Positions 52,499-55,789 of a stretch of 64,000 bases of DNA are shown here, piece by piece; positions within the stretch are counted from its first letter, which is position 1; each line of letters opens with the position of its first letter. Under the pieces are notes generated by a model, which saw nothing but the letters and a program-made list of their open reading frames with translations, had not been told where the DNA came from and ran no database searches. The position numbers were made by a program, and so were the translations under genes. Origin of the DNA: Chryseobacterium gleum (GTDB lineage Bacteria; Bacteroidota; Bacteroidia; Flavobacteriales_D; Crocinitomicaceae); the NCBI GenBank assembly GCA_945897805.1, contig CAMDFX010000001.1:124001-188000 (forward strand), read 5' to 3'.

Positions 52499-53929
52499 AT
52501 GTCTTTGAAACAGATTTTGCCAATTTTAGTAGGCTTTTTATTCTTAGTTGCTTGCTCAGGAAATAATGATCGTCCGATAAAGGAATGTGTTTCCGCTTTT
52601 ATGCATGACAATGAGTTAATTATTGCTTTTGGATCACTCAATTACAGTCAAATTCTCGAAAAAGCAGAATACAAGAAAATAGAGAAATTAGGTAGCTTGA
52701 TTGAAGAAAGATTAGCTGATGCGCTAAATCCAGAATCGCCAGTTTATTTTGCGATAGAAGGACCATTTGATAGTAATGGAAATCCAACAGCAACGTATGT
52801 TTTCCTGGATGTTCAAAATAAAGATACCTTGGAAGATCGCCTCGCCTCTTCAGGACTTTTTATAGAAGAGGCTGGCGATATGAAATATTCCCTAAATGAT
52901 GATTTGAGCGTCGGAATCAAAGGAAATTTGGCAATCGTTGTAATTAAAAAAGAAGATTACGATGGAAAATTAATTCTTGAGGGAGCTTTCAATAAAACTA
53001 AAGGAGAACTATCTGGCGGCAAAACAGATGAACTTTTGAGTAAAAACAATGATATCGCGCTCAATGCTAATTTGGAGAATTTATACAGTACTTCAAACAC
53101 AAGTTTATCTAAACTTAGCAAACCGAAACAAAAGGAATTGACTGAAATGGTGAAAGATTCTTATGTTCACGCCTCCATAAATTTCGAAAACGGAAAAATG
53201 CTTTTTAAAACGGAAAATCTTTTTTCAGCAGCATTAGAAAACCGCATGTTTTTCAAAGATGATGCCCGTGCAAGCGTTTTGTCAAATCTTGGAAAAGGGA
53301 AGGCAAGAATCGGTATTGCTGCGAGCATTGATATGAAAAAAGCAGAAAGTTTTATTGATGATTTTGCGGCTGATTTCAAAGAAAAAATGATCAATAGCGA
53401 CACAAAATCTGCCTTGGCTGTGATGCTTTTGGGTGACGGGCCTTTAAATAAAGTTTTCAGCGGAGTTGCTGGTTTGGTTTTGGTTGGTGAACCACAAATA
53501 ATGGGTTTTGTTCCGGAATTGAATTTTAATGTCGGCATCGGAAAAGAGGGAAAACCATTGTTCGAAATTTGGGCTGCAAGTAAAAGTGGCGATCGATTTA
53601 AATATACCATTACCGATAAAAATTTAATTGGTTCTTCACCAAACGCTGGCGTTGGAATGTCTTCATTGCTAATTCCAAGTTGTGGAAAAGACTTTGGCAA
53701 AAAAGGAATTTCAGGTTTCATCGATTTTCAAGGCCTAGATGTTGAATCATTTTATTTACCAGGCGCTTACAAGTCAATCAACGTAATAAAAAATATCACC
53801 TTTAAAGTTGACAACAAAGGAAGTGAAATGGTAATCAATACAACAAAGCCAAATCAAAATATCTTGAAACAAATCATCGATTTGAATACCGAAGATTTGA
53901 AAGACATGATGGGTAATATGGCGATTTAA
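52499..53929 (+). CDS. DUF4836-like lipoprotein
   Basis: 476 aa from ATG 52499, which gives a lipoprotein signal ending at C19 (LFLVACSGNND). Body of repeated alpha/beta units: NYSQILEKAEYKKIEKL, PVYFAIEGPFD, LGKGKARIGIAASIDMKKAESFIDDF. The layout matches DUF4836 lipoproteins of Bacteroidota, whose function is unknown. Confidence 0.65.
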   Translation: MSLKQILPILVGFLFLVACSGNNDRPIKECVSAFMHDNELIIAFGSLNYSQILEKAEYKKIEKLGSLIEERLADALNPESPVYFAIEGPFDSNGNPTATYVFLDVQNKDTLEDRLASSGLFIEEAGDMKYSLNDDLSVGIKGNLAIVVIKKEDYDGKLILEGAFNKTKGELSGGKTDELLSKNNDIALNANLENLYSTSNTSLSKLSKPKQKELTEMVKDSYVHASINFENGKMLFKTENLFSAALENRMFFKDDARASVLSNLGKGKARIGIAASIDMKKAESFIDDFAADFKEKMINSDTKSALAVMLLGDGPLNKVFSGVAGLVLVGEPQIMGFVPELNFNVGIGKEGKPLFEIWAASKSGDRFKYTITDKNLIGSSPNAGVGMSSLLIPSCGKDFGKKGISGFIDFQGLDVESFYLPGAYKSINVIKNITFKVDNKGSEMVINTTKPNQNILKQIIDLNTEDLKDMMGNMAI

Positions 53930-54024
53930 AGTAAAAGTGTGAATTGAATTTAAAAGTTTGTTTTGGCATTGCTGAGACAAACTTTTTTGTACCTTTATTA
54001 TACTAACTTTAAAACTGAACCAAA

Positions 54025-54378
54025 ATGAAAAGTGGTTGGATGTATATTTTAATTTGTAACGATGGCAGTTATTATACTGGCAGCACAATCGATATAAATA
54101 GGAGGTTAAATCAGCACCAATTGGGACAAGGCGCAAATCACACAAAAAAGCGCTTGCCAGTAGAATTGATTTATTATGAAGAATATAGCAGAGTTTCAAC
54201 AGCATTTTATCGCGAAAAGCAAGTTCAAGGCTGGAGTCGCAGGAAAAAAGAAGCATTGATTAGGGGAGAATATGAAAAATTGCCAGAGTTGTCAAGAGCC
54301 TACAGGGACGTTGACTTCGACAAGCTCAGTCAACCCGACAAGCTCAGTCAAAATGATAAAAGTGCAGATGCAGACTGA
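54025..54378 (+). CDS. GIY-YIG nuclease-fold protein with repeat-encoded C-terminus
   Basis: 117 aa. GIY-YIG domain over residues 5-80: WMYILICNDGSYYTGSTIDINRRL (degenerate GIY as MYI, YIG as YTG), R26, RLNQHQLGQGANHTK, Y51-E52, YREKQVQGWSRRKK. This is the UPF0213/YhbQ-type single-domain group, usually ~90 aa. The extra residues 96-117 (VDFDKLSQPDKLSQNDK) are encoded by two direct repeats of gacaagctcagtcaa, and two inverted copies follow after the stop. Cellular role of the group is unknown. Confidence 0.85.
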   Translation: MKSGWMYILICNDGSYYTGSTIDINRRLNQHQLGQGANHTKKRLPVELIYYEEYSRVSTAFYREKQVQGWSRRKKEALIRGEYEKLPELSRAYRDVDFDKLSQPDKLSQNDKSADAD

Positions 54379-54416
54379 GGCACTCGAAGTCAGCATCTGG
54401 CACTCGAAGTCAGCAA
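54310..54416. repeat. REP-like palindromic repeat cluster at the GIY-YIG 3' end
   Basis: Two direct repeats on plus (ttgacttcgacaagctcagtcaa at 54311-54333 region, and gacaagctcagtcaa again at 54337-54351), followed by two inverted-orientation copies (ggcactcgaagtcagca at 54379-54395 and again at 54399-54415). The core TGACTTCGA (54312-54320) is the exact complement of TCGAAGTCA at 54384-54392 and 54404-54412. Two inward-facing arms could fold as a long hairpin. Confidence 0.8.
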
Positions 54417-54474
54417 TCAAACCTTTTCCATTCTAAACTGTTAACCATACAAACATCCAAACAAATCCAAAATC

Positions 54475-54846
54475 ATGTTAGACAAATCGAATTTCAACAA
54501 TTTAACACCTGAAGAGAAAAGAGTAATACTCAATAAAGGAACTGAAATGCCATTCACTGGAGAATTCAATTCCTGGAAAAAGGCGGGAACTTTTATTTGT
54601 CGCCAATGCGAAGCACCACTATATCATTCAGATTCGAAATTTGATTCTGGTTGCGGTTGGCCTTCTTTCGATGACGAGATTTCTGGAGCCGTAAGACAAG
54701 TTCCTGATGCTGATGGACGCAGGATCGAAATTGTTTGCAACCATTGCGAAGGACATTTAGGACATGTTTTTGTTGGGGAGCGATTCACAGCCAAAAACAC
54801 ACGACACTGCGTCAATTCAATTTCTTTGAAGTTTATTGAAGATTGA
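54475..54846 (+). CDS. msrB: Peptide-methionine (R)-S-oxide reductase
   Basis: 123 aa. MsrB marks: [16 protein letters not shown], the zinc sites CRQC and CNHC, GHLGHVF, and the catalytic cysteine in RHCVNS (usually RYCVNS). Reduces methionine-R-sulfoxide in damaged proteins. Single gene, convergent with the lytic transglycosylase gene (1 nt between stops). Confidence 0.93.
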
Positions 54847-54847
54847 T

Positions 54848-55789
54848 TTATTCCACGCAATCAAACAATTTTACACATTCACTTTTTGTCATGTCGTGCA
54901 AAATGAATTGCGAAGCCAAAGCCAATTGCGTATAGTTTTGGGATGAATTTCCAAAGGAAGCCGCGTGCGTTTGCCACATGGCTTTGATTAAACTTTGTCC
55001 GCCTTCTGTTGGATTGATTTTATTGACCACAGCGCGCACATTCATCGAACCAGCGTGATATACATGCAACACAAACAAGCGAAACCACAAATCTGATTCA
55101 TCGTAAACAATATTGTGGTCGTTCAAAATTCTCTTTGCCTCTGGAATACAAATTCTATTGATTAATCGCGCAGCGCCGAAAGCAGATTTATTGAAATCTT
55201 TGCGTTCGTCGGTTGTTTTATTAACAATCAATCCTTGCGCCCGTGCAACTCCCGGCATCAATTGAAATGCGCCATAAGCTCCTGCAGAAGATTTTTTTAA
55301 TTGACCTGGACTTTCGATCAATAAAATAGCTTGCGCATACCAAGGATCAACGCCTTGACTTTCAAAAGCTAAAATGCCATTTGAAATGCTTGGATAAACT
55401 TCGTTGAATTTGTAAAAATCATTTTTTCCCGTGGTCACAAATATTTTGTCGGTTGAATCGACAGCGTTTGCCAATTTGATGCTGTCTTTGAAAATCGTTT
55501 TGTGTGCTTCTGTCTGTTTTGACCAATCTTTGTTTGACATTTTCAATAAAATTTGTCTATTTGAAGCAACATTAATCAAACAAGAATCTGGCGACAATTT
55601 CATGATTTCTTTCCAAAACGCAGGTTGAGGCAAAGTGTCCCATAAACCATCGAACAACGGTTGGGAATTCATCAAAATGCCACTTTTTTCTGGATTGGTG
55701 ACTTCAACCAATTCATGGTCCCAACTTGGAAGTTGCGCATAAAATGGCGCGAAAAATGCGGAGAAAACTAACATTAAAAAATATCGCAT
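54848..55789 (-). CDS. Lytic murein transglycosylase (SLT domain)
   Basis: 313 aa. Signal peptide 1-18 (ending FYAQ). SLT/lysozyme-like domain: catalytic Glu in LLIESPGQLKKSSAGAYGAFQLMPGVA, and the C-terminal VYHAGSMNVRAVV. Cleaves the MurNAc-GlcNAc bond of peptidoglycan leaving a 1,6-anhydro end. The S-P-G-Q sequence after the Glu differs from the usual ES-x-(F/Y)-x-P, so the exact subfamily is unsure. Confidence 0.85.
   Translation of the reverse strand: MRYFLMLVFSAFFAPFYAQLPSWDHELVEVTNPEKSGILMNSQPLFDGLWDTLPQPAFWKEIMKLSPDSCLINVASNRQILLKMSNKDWSKQTEAHKTIFKDSIKLANAVDSTDKIFVTTGKNDFYKFNEVYPSISNGILAFESQGVDPWYAQAILLIESPGQLKKSSAGAYGAFQLMPGVARAQGLIVNKTTDERKDFNKSAFGAARLINRICIPEAKRILNDHNIVYDESDLWFRLFVLHVYHAGSMNVRAVVNKINPTEGGQSLIKAMWQTHAASFGNSSQNYTQLALASQFILHDMTKSECVKLFDCVE

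Follow-up and report, generated by a model that had tools for sequence, protein, structure and literature searches.

Small GIY-YIG nucleases paired with palindromic repeats as a candidate REP-like module

Introduction

Many bacterial genomes contain large numbers of small palindromic repeats. An enzyme is known for the repetitive extragenic palindromes (REPs) of the GTAG class, and RAYT systems are described as a small gene flanked by palindromes, with scattered repeats, co-diversification of enzyme and repeat, and a repeat copy number that is on average higher where the gene is present (PMC2817692, PMC8049555). A survey from 2013 distinguished a GTAG from a CGTC class of REPs, treated the CGTC REPs as the same as dRS3 and RPE-4/RPE-6, and named no enzyme for them, stating that they "apparently lack a dedicated transposase"; the term GIY-YIG has 0 occurrences in it (PMC3733652). 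The terms RAYT, nuclease and transposase likewise occur 0 times in the main text of the RepRanger paper (PMC12306157). UPF0213-type GIY-YIG proteins have been described as predicted repair nucleases (PMC1564403) and as relatives of Slx1 (PMC7017083). A search of a PubMed Central subset, with subscription literature and bioRxiv mostly outside it, found no paper linking GIY-YIG to REP-type repeats, which does not prove priority.

Here we analyse a GIY-YIG gene that runs into palindromic repeats in a stretch of DNA of 64,000 nucleotides (the window), together with its relatives in other genomes, on plasmids and on viral contigs.

Results

The window gene and its palindromic 3' end

The gene and the palindromes at its 3' end are arranged as follows (positions of the window).

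54025..54378, plus strand: GIY-YIG nuclease ORF, 117 aa, stop included
54025..54300, plus strand: folded nuclease domain, residues 1-92 (model, structure relatives, residue conservation)
54310..54334, plus strand: complete palindromic element of C loop type, GTTGAC-TTCGA-CAAG-CTCA-GTCAAC, coding (sequence reading)
54337..54351, plus strand: tandem copy of the element's 3' half, GACAAG-CTCA-GTCAA (sequence reading)
54365..54399, minus strand: inverted element of G loop type, core 54373-54391 = GACTTCGA-GTGC-CTCAGTC
54399..54411, minus strand: partial inverted copy, GGCACTCGAAGTC (sequence reading)

Pfam matches the window protein to PF01541 (GIY-YIG; residues 4-75, E=1.5e-18) and to nothing else; an HUH Y1 tyrosine transposase domain was not found. 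Y7, Y17, R27 and E64, which we take to be the catalytic Tyr, Tyr, Arg and Glu of the domain, are invariant in 81 of 81 homologues, and comparison with the orthologue in the sister genome G118 gives a dN of 0.025, a dS of 0.75 and a dN/dS of 0.033. The active site is conserved and purifying selection on the nuclease is strong. The sequence-only reading had placed the end of the nuclease fold near residue 92, and the model agrees, with a pLDDT of about 96 over the domain and about 46-55 over the repeat-coded tail, which is modelled unfolded. The nearest solved structures are UPF0213 proteins (1zg2, 1ywl), followed by Slx1, a branched-DNA nuclease; the window gene encodes a compact UPF0213/Slx1-like GIY-YIG nuclease. 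NCBIfam gave no match for any of five proteins, and the defence-system search with PADLOC none for the window protein.

The last approximately 20 codons and the stop lie within palindromes with the core TTCGA-N4-CTCA. Two copies of gacaagctcagtcaa, at 54319-54333 and 54337-54351, encode DKLSQ at residues 99-103 and 105-109. Two direct repeats had been read as encoding residues 96-117; this is right for the two pentapeptides, while 96-117 is the whole tail. Inverted copies directly adjoin these repeats, as had been noted: the G-type element at 54365-54399 contains the TGA stop codon (54376-54378) and has an imperfect outer stem (CAGATGC/GCATCTG), the same element being a perfect palindrome in a sister species (L037), and the partial copy follows. 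Within the window, repeats lie downstream of the gene only. A terminator-like hairpin (AAGTTTG...CAAACTTTTTT, 53951-53992), situated between the upstream gene and the GIY-YIG unit, is also present in both filled sister genomes. Rfam, at gathering scores, had no match in 53000-55500.

Repeats at homologous genes

As homologues we took the best 80 of 455 relatives from titled genome contigs, each together with flanks of up to 10 kb, and defined a strict element as TTCG[AG]-N2-22-CTCA within at least 5 perfect pairs, overlapping readings being merged. At these best 80 of 455 loci, 109 strict elements lie in the 400 bp downstream, counted from the nuclease domain (3.6/kb), 59 in the 400 bp upstream of it (1.9/kb) and 60 in the remaining 1.17 Mb (0.05/kb); the reversed motif occurs once, and the unmerged counts are 118, 60 and 62. 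Strict elements are found downstream in 60 of the best 80 of 455, upstream in 33 and on both sides in 28; the other 20 of these 80 lack one downstream. When only at least 3 pairs are required, 78 of the same best 80 of 455 have a classifiable element within 400 bp, the exceptions being L051 and L089, which were left out of the tree count given below. A motif-free test gives the same picture: 10-mers recurring directly or inverted inside 300-bp windows cover a mean of 84 bases downstream and 65 upstream, compared to 5.7 in the control. The nearest copies are inverted in 28 of the 50 TTCGA/CTCA loci with elements on both sides. No strict element was found near any of 23 distant GIY-YIG genes, and in each set the reversed motif or control tag is counted 0-5 times near the genes. 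The association of the GIY-YIG gene with palindromes is beyond doubt, and the clustering at GIY-YIG 3' ends that the sequence-only reading had proposed to look for is found, on the upstream side as well.

These loci also bear on the C-terminus, on which that reading had placed its emphasis, with the statement that similar flavobacterial GIY-YIG genes appear to end in repeat-derived tails. Among the best 80 of 455, the ORF contains the first plus-strand core in 36, in keeping with that statement, whereas the stop precedes the core in 26 and 18 have no such core; in-ORF cores are read in two frames (28 and 8 homologues). A functional peptide was considered and rejected as the main reading of the tail, given the two frames, the 26 of 80 stops before the repeat and the low pLDDT. 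The tail is best read as incidental, a gene running into an adjacent repeat, because two frames are used, the pLDDT is low and repeats occur upstream too; the emphasis on the C-terminus is therefore misplaced.

Element structure and co-diversification

Cores of the form TTCGA-N4-CTCA, with no stem required, number 310 near the genes and 121 elsewhere. Over 149 distinct arms, outer-stem positions are paired in 66% of cases, compared to 39% (maximum 43%) when arms are shuffled, and 20 different fully paired 6-bp arms are present. The stems are compensatory, and they vary around a conserved core. In DNA folding, G-type elements form an outer stem together with T-A, a TC bulge and an inner stem GAG-CTC, and C-type elements have an open loop. 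Tandem half-elements are frequent, mostly 18-21 bp apart, and the second copy in the window is one of them. Orphan 3' halves (65 in 30 loci) outnumber orphan 5' halves (30 in 19 loci) in the best 80 of 455, and as a pointer to the cut site such asymmetric growth is suggestive only.

By loop class, the 78 labelled loci (from the best 80 of 455) comprise 49 G, 21 C, 6 long TAC and 2 CG5, nine loci with more than one class being labelled by the commonest; the window adds one C-type locus. Repeat type changes 12 times on the nuclease tree, which is built on 89 columns and poorly resolved, compared to a shuffled mean of 26.7, and 0 of 200 shuffles gave a number as low. Since related proteins come from related taxa, the tree signal alone is no proof of recognition. 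Enzyme and repeat co-evolve, with shared host ancestry perhaps contributing part of the signal, and specific recognition of the repeat by the nuclease is likely.

Pairing of nuclease subfamilies and repeat families

The pairing was explored with 54 GIY-YIG genes (53 from 120 genomes of the order, plus the second small gene of the window's genome), flanked where the contig was long enough by approximately 1.5 kb per side. We distinguished a short TTCGA/CTCA element (F1), a long TTCGATAC/ACTC element (F2) and a TGTCAT-type repeat (F3); F2, F3 and the tail classes were derived on these same 54 loci, so this count is exploratory. The 17 closest genes have F1 in 15 cases and F2 in 2. The class with a KKF tail has F2 in 12 of 13 and F1 in 0 of 13, the nine AFxxKR-tail genes together have a single F1 match, and NPxW-tail genes have F3 in 3 of 5. 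F1 or F2 is found near 30 of the 31 genes scoring above 60 bits (L158 has none), compared to 4 of 23 below 60 bits.

For the follow-up, motifs and predictions were fixed before 99 phylum-wide genomes were searched, three of which (G000, G008, G009) had been searched earlier; the window's own gene (L216) was dropped from the count. With the NPxW query, F3 lies near 15 of 30 genes, F1 near 3 and F2 near none, and F3 copies number 48 near the genes (30.4 kb) versus 9 far from them (62.7 kb). With the KKF query, F1 is near 13 of 29, F2 near 9 and F3 near 3, and 8 of the 29 have none of the motifs. The written prediction of "few F1" for this query did not come true literally (13 of 29), as genes of several subfamilies were retrieved; once the genes were grouped according to their tails, by eye and after the counts, F2 is near 9 of 9 genes with KKF-like tails and 0 of 20 others, 12 of which have F1. 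Phylum-wide, reversed motifs amount to 0-1 per count. Different GIY-YIG subfamilies thus sit in different repeats.

Of eight further plasmid-collection regions, six were read by eye only (L133-L136, L138, L140). At two Methylobacterium loci (L133, L134) and a Sphingomonas locus (L135), with GIY-YIG genes 42-47% identical, the gene is flanked upstream and downstream by TTCGAGG..CCTCAGGATGAGG and CTTCGACTTCGCTCAG palindromes; at L135 the gene also overlaps an RNA methyltransferase gene by a few bases. The other three of the six had no flanking repeats by eye.

CGTC-tagged REPs and the NPxW branch

For CGTC REPs, the finder required the tag [CT]GTC and a perfect stem of at least 7 bp within 400 bp of the gene. 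It was applied to 15 plasmid loci: 13 picked from 33 plasmid records so as to spread over genera, plus L137 and L139, whose records recur among the 33. CGTC REPs lie near the GIY-YIG gene in 12 of the 15 (Novosphingobium, Sphingobium twice, Sinorhizobium, Aeromonas, Azospirillum, Rhizobium, Shinella twice, Photobacterium, Neorhizobium and Neisseria), with 0 for the control tag. The protein tail is NPxW in 14 of 15, the Neisseria protein having NVSW. In Planktothrix and Spirosoma, TGTCAT forms whose longer loops escape the finder are seen by eye; the Rhizobium tumorigenes protein (L271) ends in an NPxW tail, but no CGTC REP lies near its gene. In four 40-kb stretches there are 10 CGTC REPs near the gene (2.3/kb) versus 12 far from it (0.077/kb), with 7 control tags in total, and the nearest copies are inverted in 8 of 10 plasmid loci. 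Many copies (in Azospirillum, Rhizobium and Aeromonas, for instance) have a stem starting with AT and a CCA tail; in Sphingobium the start is AC and the end ccc, in Novosphingobium GC and ttg.

On viral contigs, the finder was fixed beforehand for single-protein queries, and 69 loci from an alignment query were added later and split by similarity into 49 and 20 distant GIY-YIG genes. Near the genes there are 61 CGTC REPs, in 24 of the 49 loci, at 1.19/kb versus 0.109/kb far away; control tags number 1 near and 14 far. Near-duplicates, such as L355/L356 and L367/L368, appear to be present among the 49 and were counted separately. Strict CGTC REPs are near 0 of the 20 distant genes. The arrangement is + gene - in 10 of 12 loci, and a loose pattern detects an NPxW-like tail in 45 of the 49. 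With the fixed finders, 22 of the 49 have neither CGTC nor F3 repeats; ten missed loci that were inspected show imperfect CGTC/TGTC repeats by eye, and a wider motif, made afterwards, is near 41 of the 49 and 2 of the 20. The single NPxW query gave two loci, one with strict CGTC REPs (L320, which is again among the 49) and one with a variant tag by eye; a single scan with the window-type protein gave no match. The NPxW branch would be a candidate enzyme partner for CGTC REPs, a class reported to lack one. This pairing, the furthest-reaching part of the analysis, lies outside the window coordinates.

Repeats away from the gene

The 13-mer GACAAGCTCAGTC occurs twice in the 3.19-Mb genome of the window, both times at the window gene, and its backward pattern 0 times. 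The full form GACTTCGA-N4-CTCAGTC has four exact copies, two at the window gene and two on contig C22. With 3 mismatches there are 38 matches versus 41 for the backward control, and in the absence of any excess only near-exact forms are meaningful. YTTCGASNRSCTCAR has 10 matches across the genome (control 0), and core-sharing variants such as CACTTCGACARGCTCAGTG lie on C1, C4, C11 and C17. The 15-nt unit that the sequence-only reading had treated as a repeat family is thus not dispersed in its exact form, whereas core-sharing variants are, and the genome has few repeat copies overall. On C22, the two exact full forms are accompanied by partial copies. A 55-bp piece of it shares 95% identity with the block that follows a sister species' GIY-YIG gene; when the cluster is compared with four sister genomes, 55 bp match the blocks at the G118 and G307 GIY-YIG genes and 28 bp match in G204, while the cluster has no match in G398 and its flanks have no counterpart in any of the four.

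Across the order, genomes with a close homologue have a mean of 7.4 repeat copies (17 genomes) versus 2.6 in those without (91 genomes), a modest difference that includes copies at the gene itself. The rank test on the 17 and 91 genomes gives p=2.5e-5, confounded by those copies, with the reversed control not significant; 12 of the 120 genomes, in the mid-range (mean 4.4), were left out. At least 5 copies are present in 12 of the 91 genomes without a close homologue. A clear exception to the link between gene and repeat abundance is the complete genome G009, with 42 TTCGA/CTCA copies and no GIY-YIG match at E<=1e-3. In the stretches inspected (on C18, C23, C36, C40 and C43; L310-L318), its copies are mostly intergenic and often in inverted pairs, and one 22-bp tandem array of repeats is present.

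Presence, absence and neighbourhood of the unit

The gene downstream of the window unit is one we take to be msrB-like, and comparison with sister genomes delimits the interval:

53930..54474: stop of the upstream gene to the msrB-like start, 545 bp, holding the whole unit (sister comparison)

At the same junction in five genomes of the genus, the unit is present in G000, G118 and G307 and absent from G204 and G398 (the latter 73% complete). Neither a GIY-YIG gene nor a recognisable repeat is found at the junction in G204 or in both matching stretches of G398; at these empty sites of the two genomes the interval is about 20-55 bp (read by eye) versus 545 bp in the window. An empty junction can reflect loss as well as absence of gain. 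A search for empty sites that used a Chryseobacterium junction as query, with gene names as we presume them, matched 314 of 399 genomes; among the matches listed, only the downstream gene and the edge are covered. In Azospirillum lipoferum 4B, an NPxW gene with its CGTC REPs lies between sufB and sufC.

Neighbourhoods differ even for very similar genes. The L065 and L070 proteins are 98.9% identical and have no common neighbour in the DNA compared. In pairs without shared neighbours, DNA similarity stops 3-99 bp before and 10-106 bp after the gene; for L065/L070 it reaches further before the gene, 234-239 bp. The downstream block is repeated directly upstream of the gene in 48 of 73 loci (from the best 80 of 455; 7 of the 80 with less than 150 bp of flank are omitted), and at L050 a 119-bp direct repeat of 97% identity includes part of the 3' end of the gene itself. 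An earlier paper noted the recent insertion of a GIY-YIG domain into an HsdR gene (PMC1564403), which agrees with these observations.

Several neighbourhoods were recorded by eye. At ten loci, chosen in this way and implying no rate (L044, L045, L053, L071, L075, L077, L084, L101, L104, L106), the unit lies shortly before a gene that we take to be the hsdS of a type I restriction system. The GIY-YIG frame continues directly into this hsdS-like gene at L106, and its start is also found upstream of the unit at L044 and L071. In two natural fusions (L087, L090), the GIY-YIG frame reads through the repeats into a second protein, presumably resembling a GHMP-type kinase. Another group of GIY-YIG genes (L198, L191, L195, L034) adjoins tRNA genes or tRNA-like partial copies: at L198 a tRNA-like sequence is accompanied by a partial copy that lies downstream of the gene, L195 has two GIY-YIG genes in tandem, and the second small gene of the window's genome (L034, C5:178573-181767) is followed by a piece like a tRNA 3' end. 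Two genes of the low-scoring group (L196, L172) lie between long direct repeats of yet other kinds.

Discussion

We consider it probable that these loci are REP-like modules in which a structure-specific hydrolytic nuclease stands in for RAYT, cutting and host repair together mobilising the repeats. The module would consist of a compact Slx1-type GIY-YIG nuclease and its cognate hairpin repeat, which flanks the gene on one side or on both and in certain genomes is also scattered between genes. The nuclease would recognise its palindrome as a hairpin or cruciform, via outer stem, TC bulge and short inner stem, and cut it; host repair and replication would then copy the repeat in tandem and into other sites, sometimes with the gene. 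GIY-YIG enzymes are hydrolases and are not known to join strands, so that spread would need host repair. Binding, cutting and cutting-driven spread are what we infer from the sequence comparisons, as is the mobilisation or maintenance of the repeats by the protein that the sequence-only reading had suggested. The NPxW subfamily would fit the same scheme as the missing enzyme of CGTC-tagged REPs. The broader proposal is a categorically new repeat-mobilising class of single-domain Slx1-type GIY-YIG enzymes with at least three matched lineages (TTCGA/CTCA, TTCGATAC/ACTC and CGTC), spreading hairpin repeats via host repair instead of a transposase and including the enzyme of CGTC REPs, dRS3 and, if the published synonymy carries over, RPE-4/RPE-6; in our judgement it stands evenly balanced between right and wrong.

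A free-standing homing endonuclease could instead target a palindrome spread by something else, with repair copying the gene in and leaving a repeat-gene-repeat arrangement. The recurrence of the downstream block directly upstream (48 of 73 loci, from the best 80 of 455), as in the 119 bp at 97% of L050, speaks for this, as do near-identical proteins without shared neighbours (L065/L070) and DNA similarity ending close to the gene in such pairs; insertion sequences targeting REPs are known (PMC1525189). Against homing, enzyme subfamily predicts repeat family, which suggests long co-diversification, and the empty junctions of the window's genus have no recognisable repeat, so that insertion into a visible pre-existing repeat is not how the gene arrived there. 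We regard homing as unlikely.

A domesticated housekeeping role, in which the nuclease resolves or trims repeat cruciforms and protects replication without spreading anything, would suit the strong purifying selection, a fold nearest to UPF0213 and to the branched-DNA nuclease Slx1, and the orphan population of intergenic repeats that exists without the nuclease. It leaves unexplained why repeats concentrate at the gene itself, as well as the presence and absence of the unit and its differing neighbourhoods, and we find it improbable. It is very improbable that the hairpins act as ordinary terminators of transcription, or as mRNA elements, for a short gene: they do form at the 3' end, but repeats are also upstream, the core is conserved inside changing stems, density falls to 0.05/kb away from the gene and strict elements are near 0 of 23 distant GIY-YIG genes. 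The probability of chance or an annotation artefact is negligible, with reversed-motif or control-tag counts of 0-5 near genes in every set and nothing in its favour after controls.

The pairing names a candidate enzyme for the CGTC class and for the Bacteroidota TTCGA/CTCA repeats, and it explains the odd repeat-derived ends of many GIY-YIG genes. If the enzyme only hydrolyses DNA, this would be a way to spread repeats without a transposase. The question is directly testable, with a protein of approximately 10 kDa and hairpins of approximately 25 nt.

Among known systems, free-standing phage GIY-YIG homing endonucleases are likewise small nuclease genes apparently moving as a unit, but no strict CGTC REP lies close to any of the 20 distant GIY-YIG genes from viral contigs. 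UPF0213 and prokaryotic Slx1-like proteins (YhbQ, YazA) share domain, active-site residues and fold; their descriptions mention no repeat partner in the accessible text (PMC1564403, PMC7017083). CGTC-tagged REPs (dRS3 of Neisseria; RPE-4 and RPE-6 of Rickettsia) are described (PMC3733652) with the tag and stem that the NPxW-flanking repeats have, and with the CCA tail seen in many of their copies, whereas the window's own repeat is of the TTCGA/CTCA kind. The closest parallel is the one the sequence-only reading had drawn, with REP/BIME and RAYT (TnpA-REP), and it is well supported by two-sided repeats in many relatives, co-diversification, subfamily-specific pairing and intergenic copies elsewhere. 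Both have a single small gene flanked by palindromic repeats, intergenic repeats in inverted pairs, and an enzyme and repeat that diversify together; the copy number here is also higher on average with the gene, but modestly so and with copies at the gene itself counted in, and G009 is a clear exception. Unlike in RAYT systems, the window repeat has the conserved core TTCGA...CTCA and no GTAG head, the layout around the gene is looser (inverted in 28 of the 50 loci that have repeats on either side), and the enzyme is GIY-YIG/Slx1-like, not an HUH Y1 transposase. The module resembles REP/RAYT without being a member of it, because the enzyme class differs.
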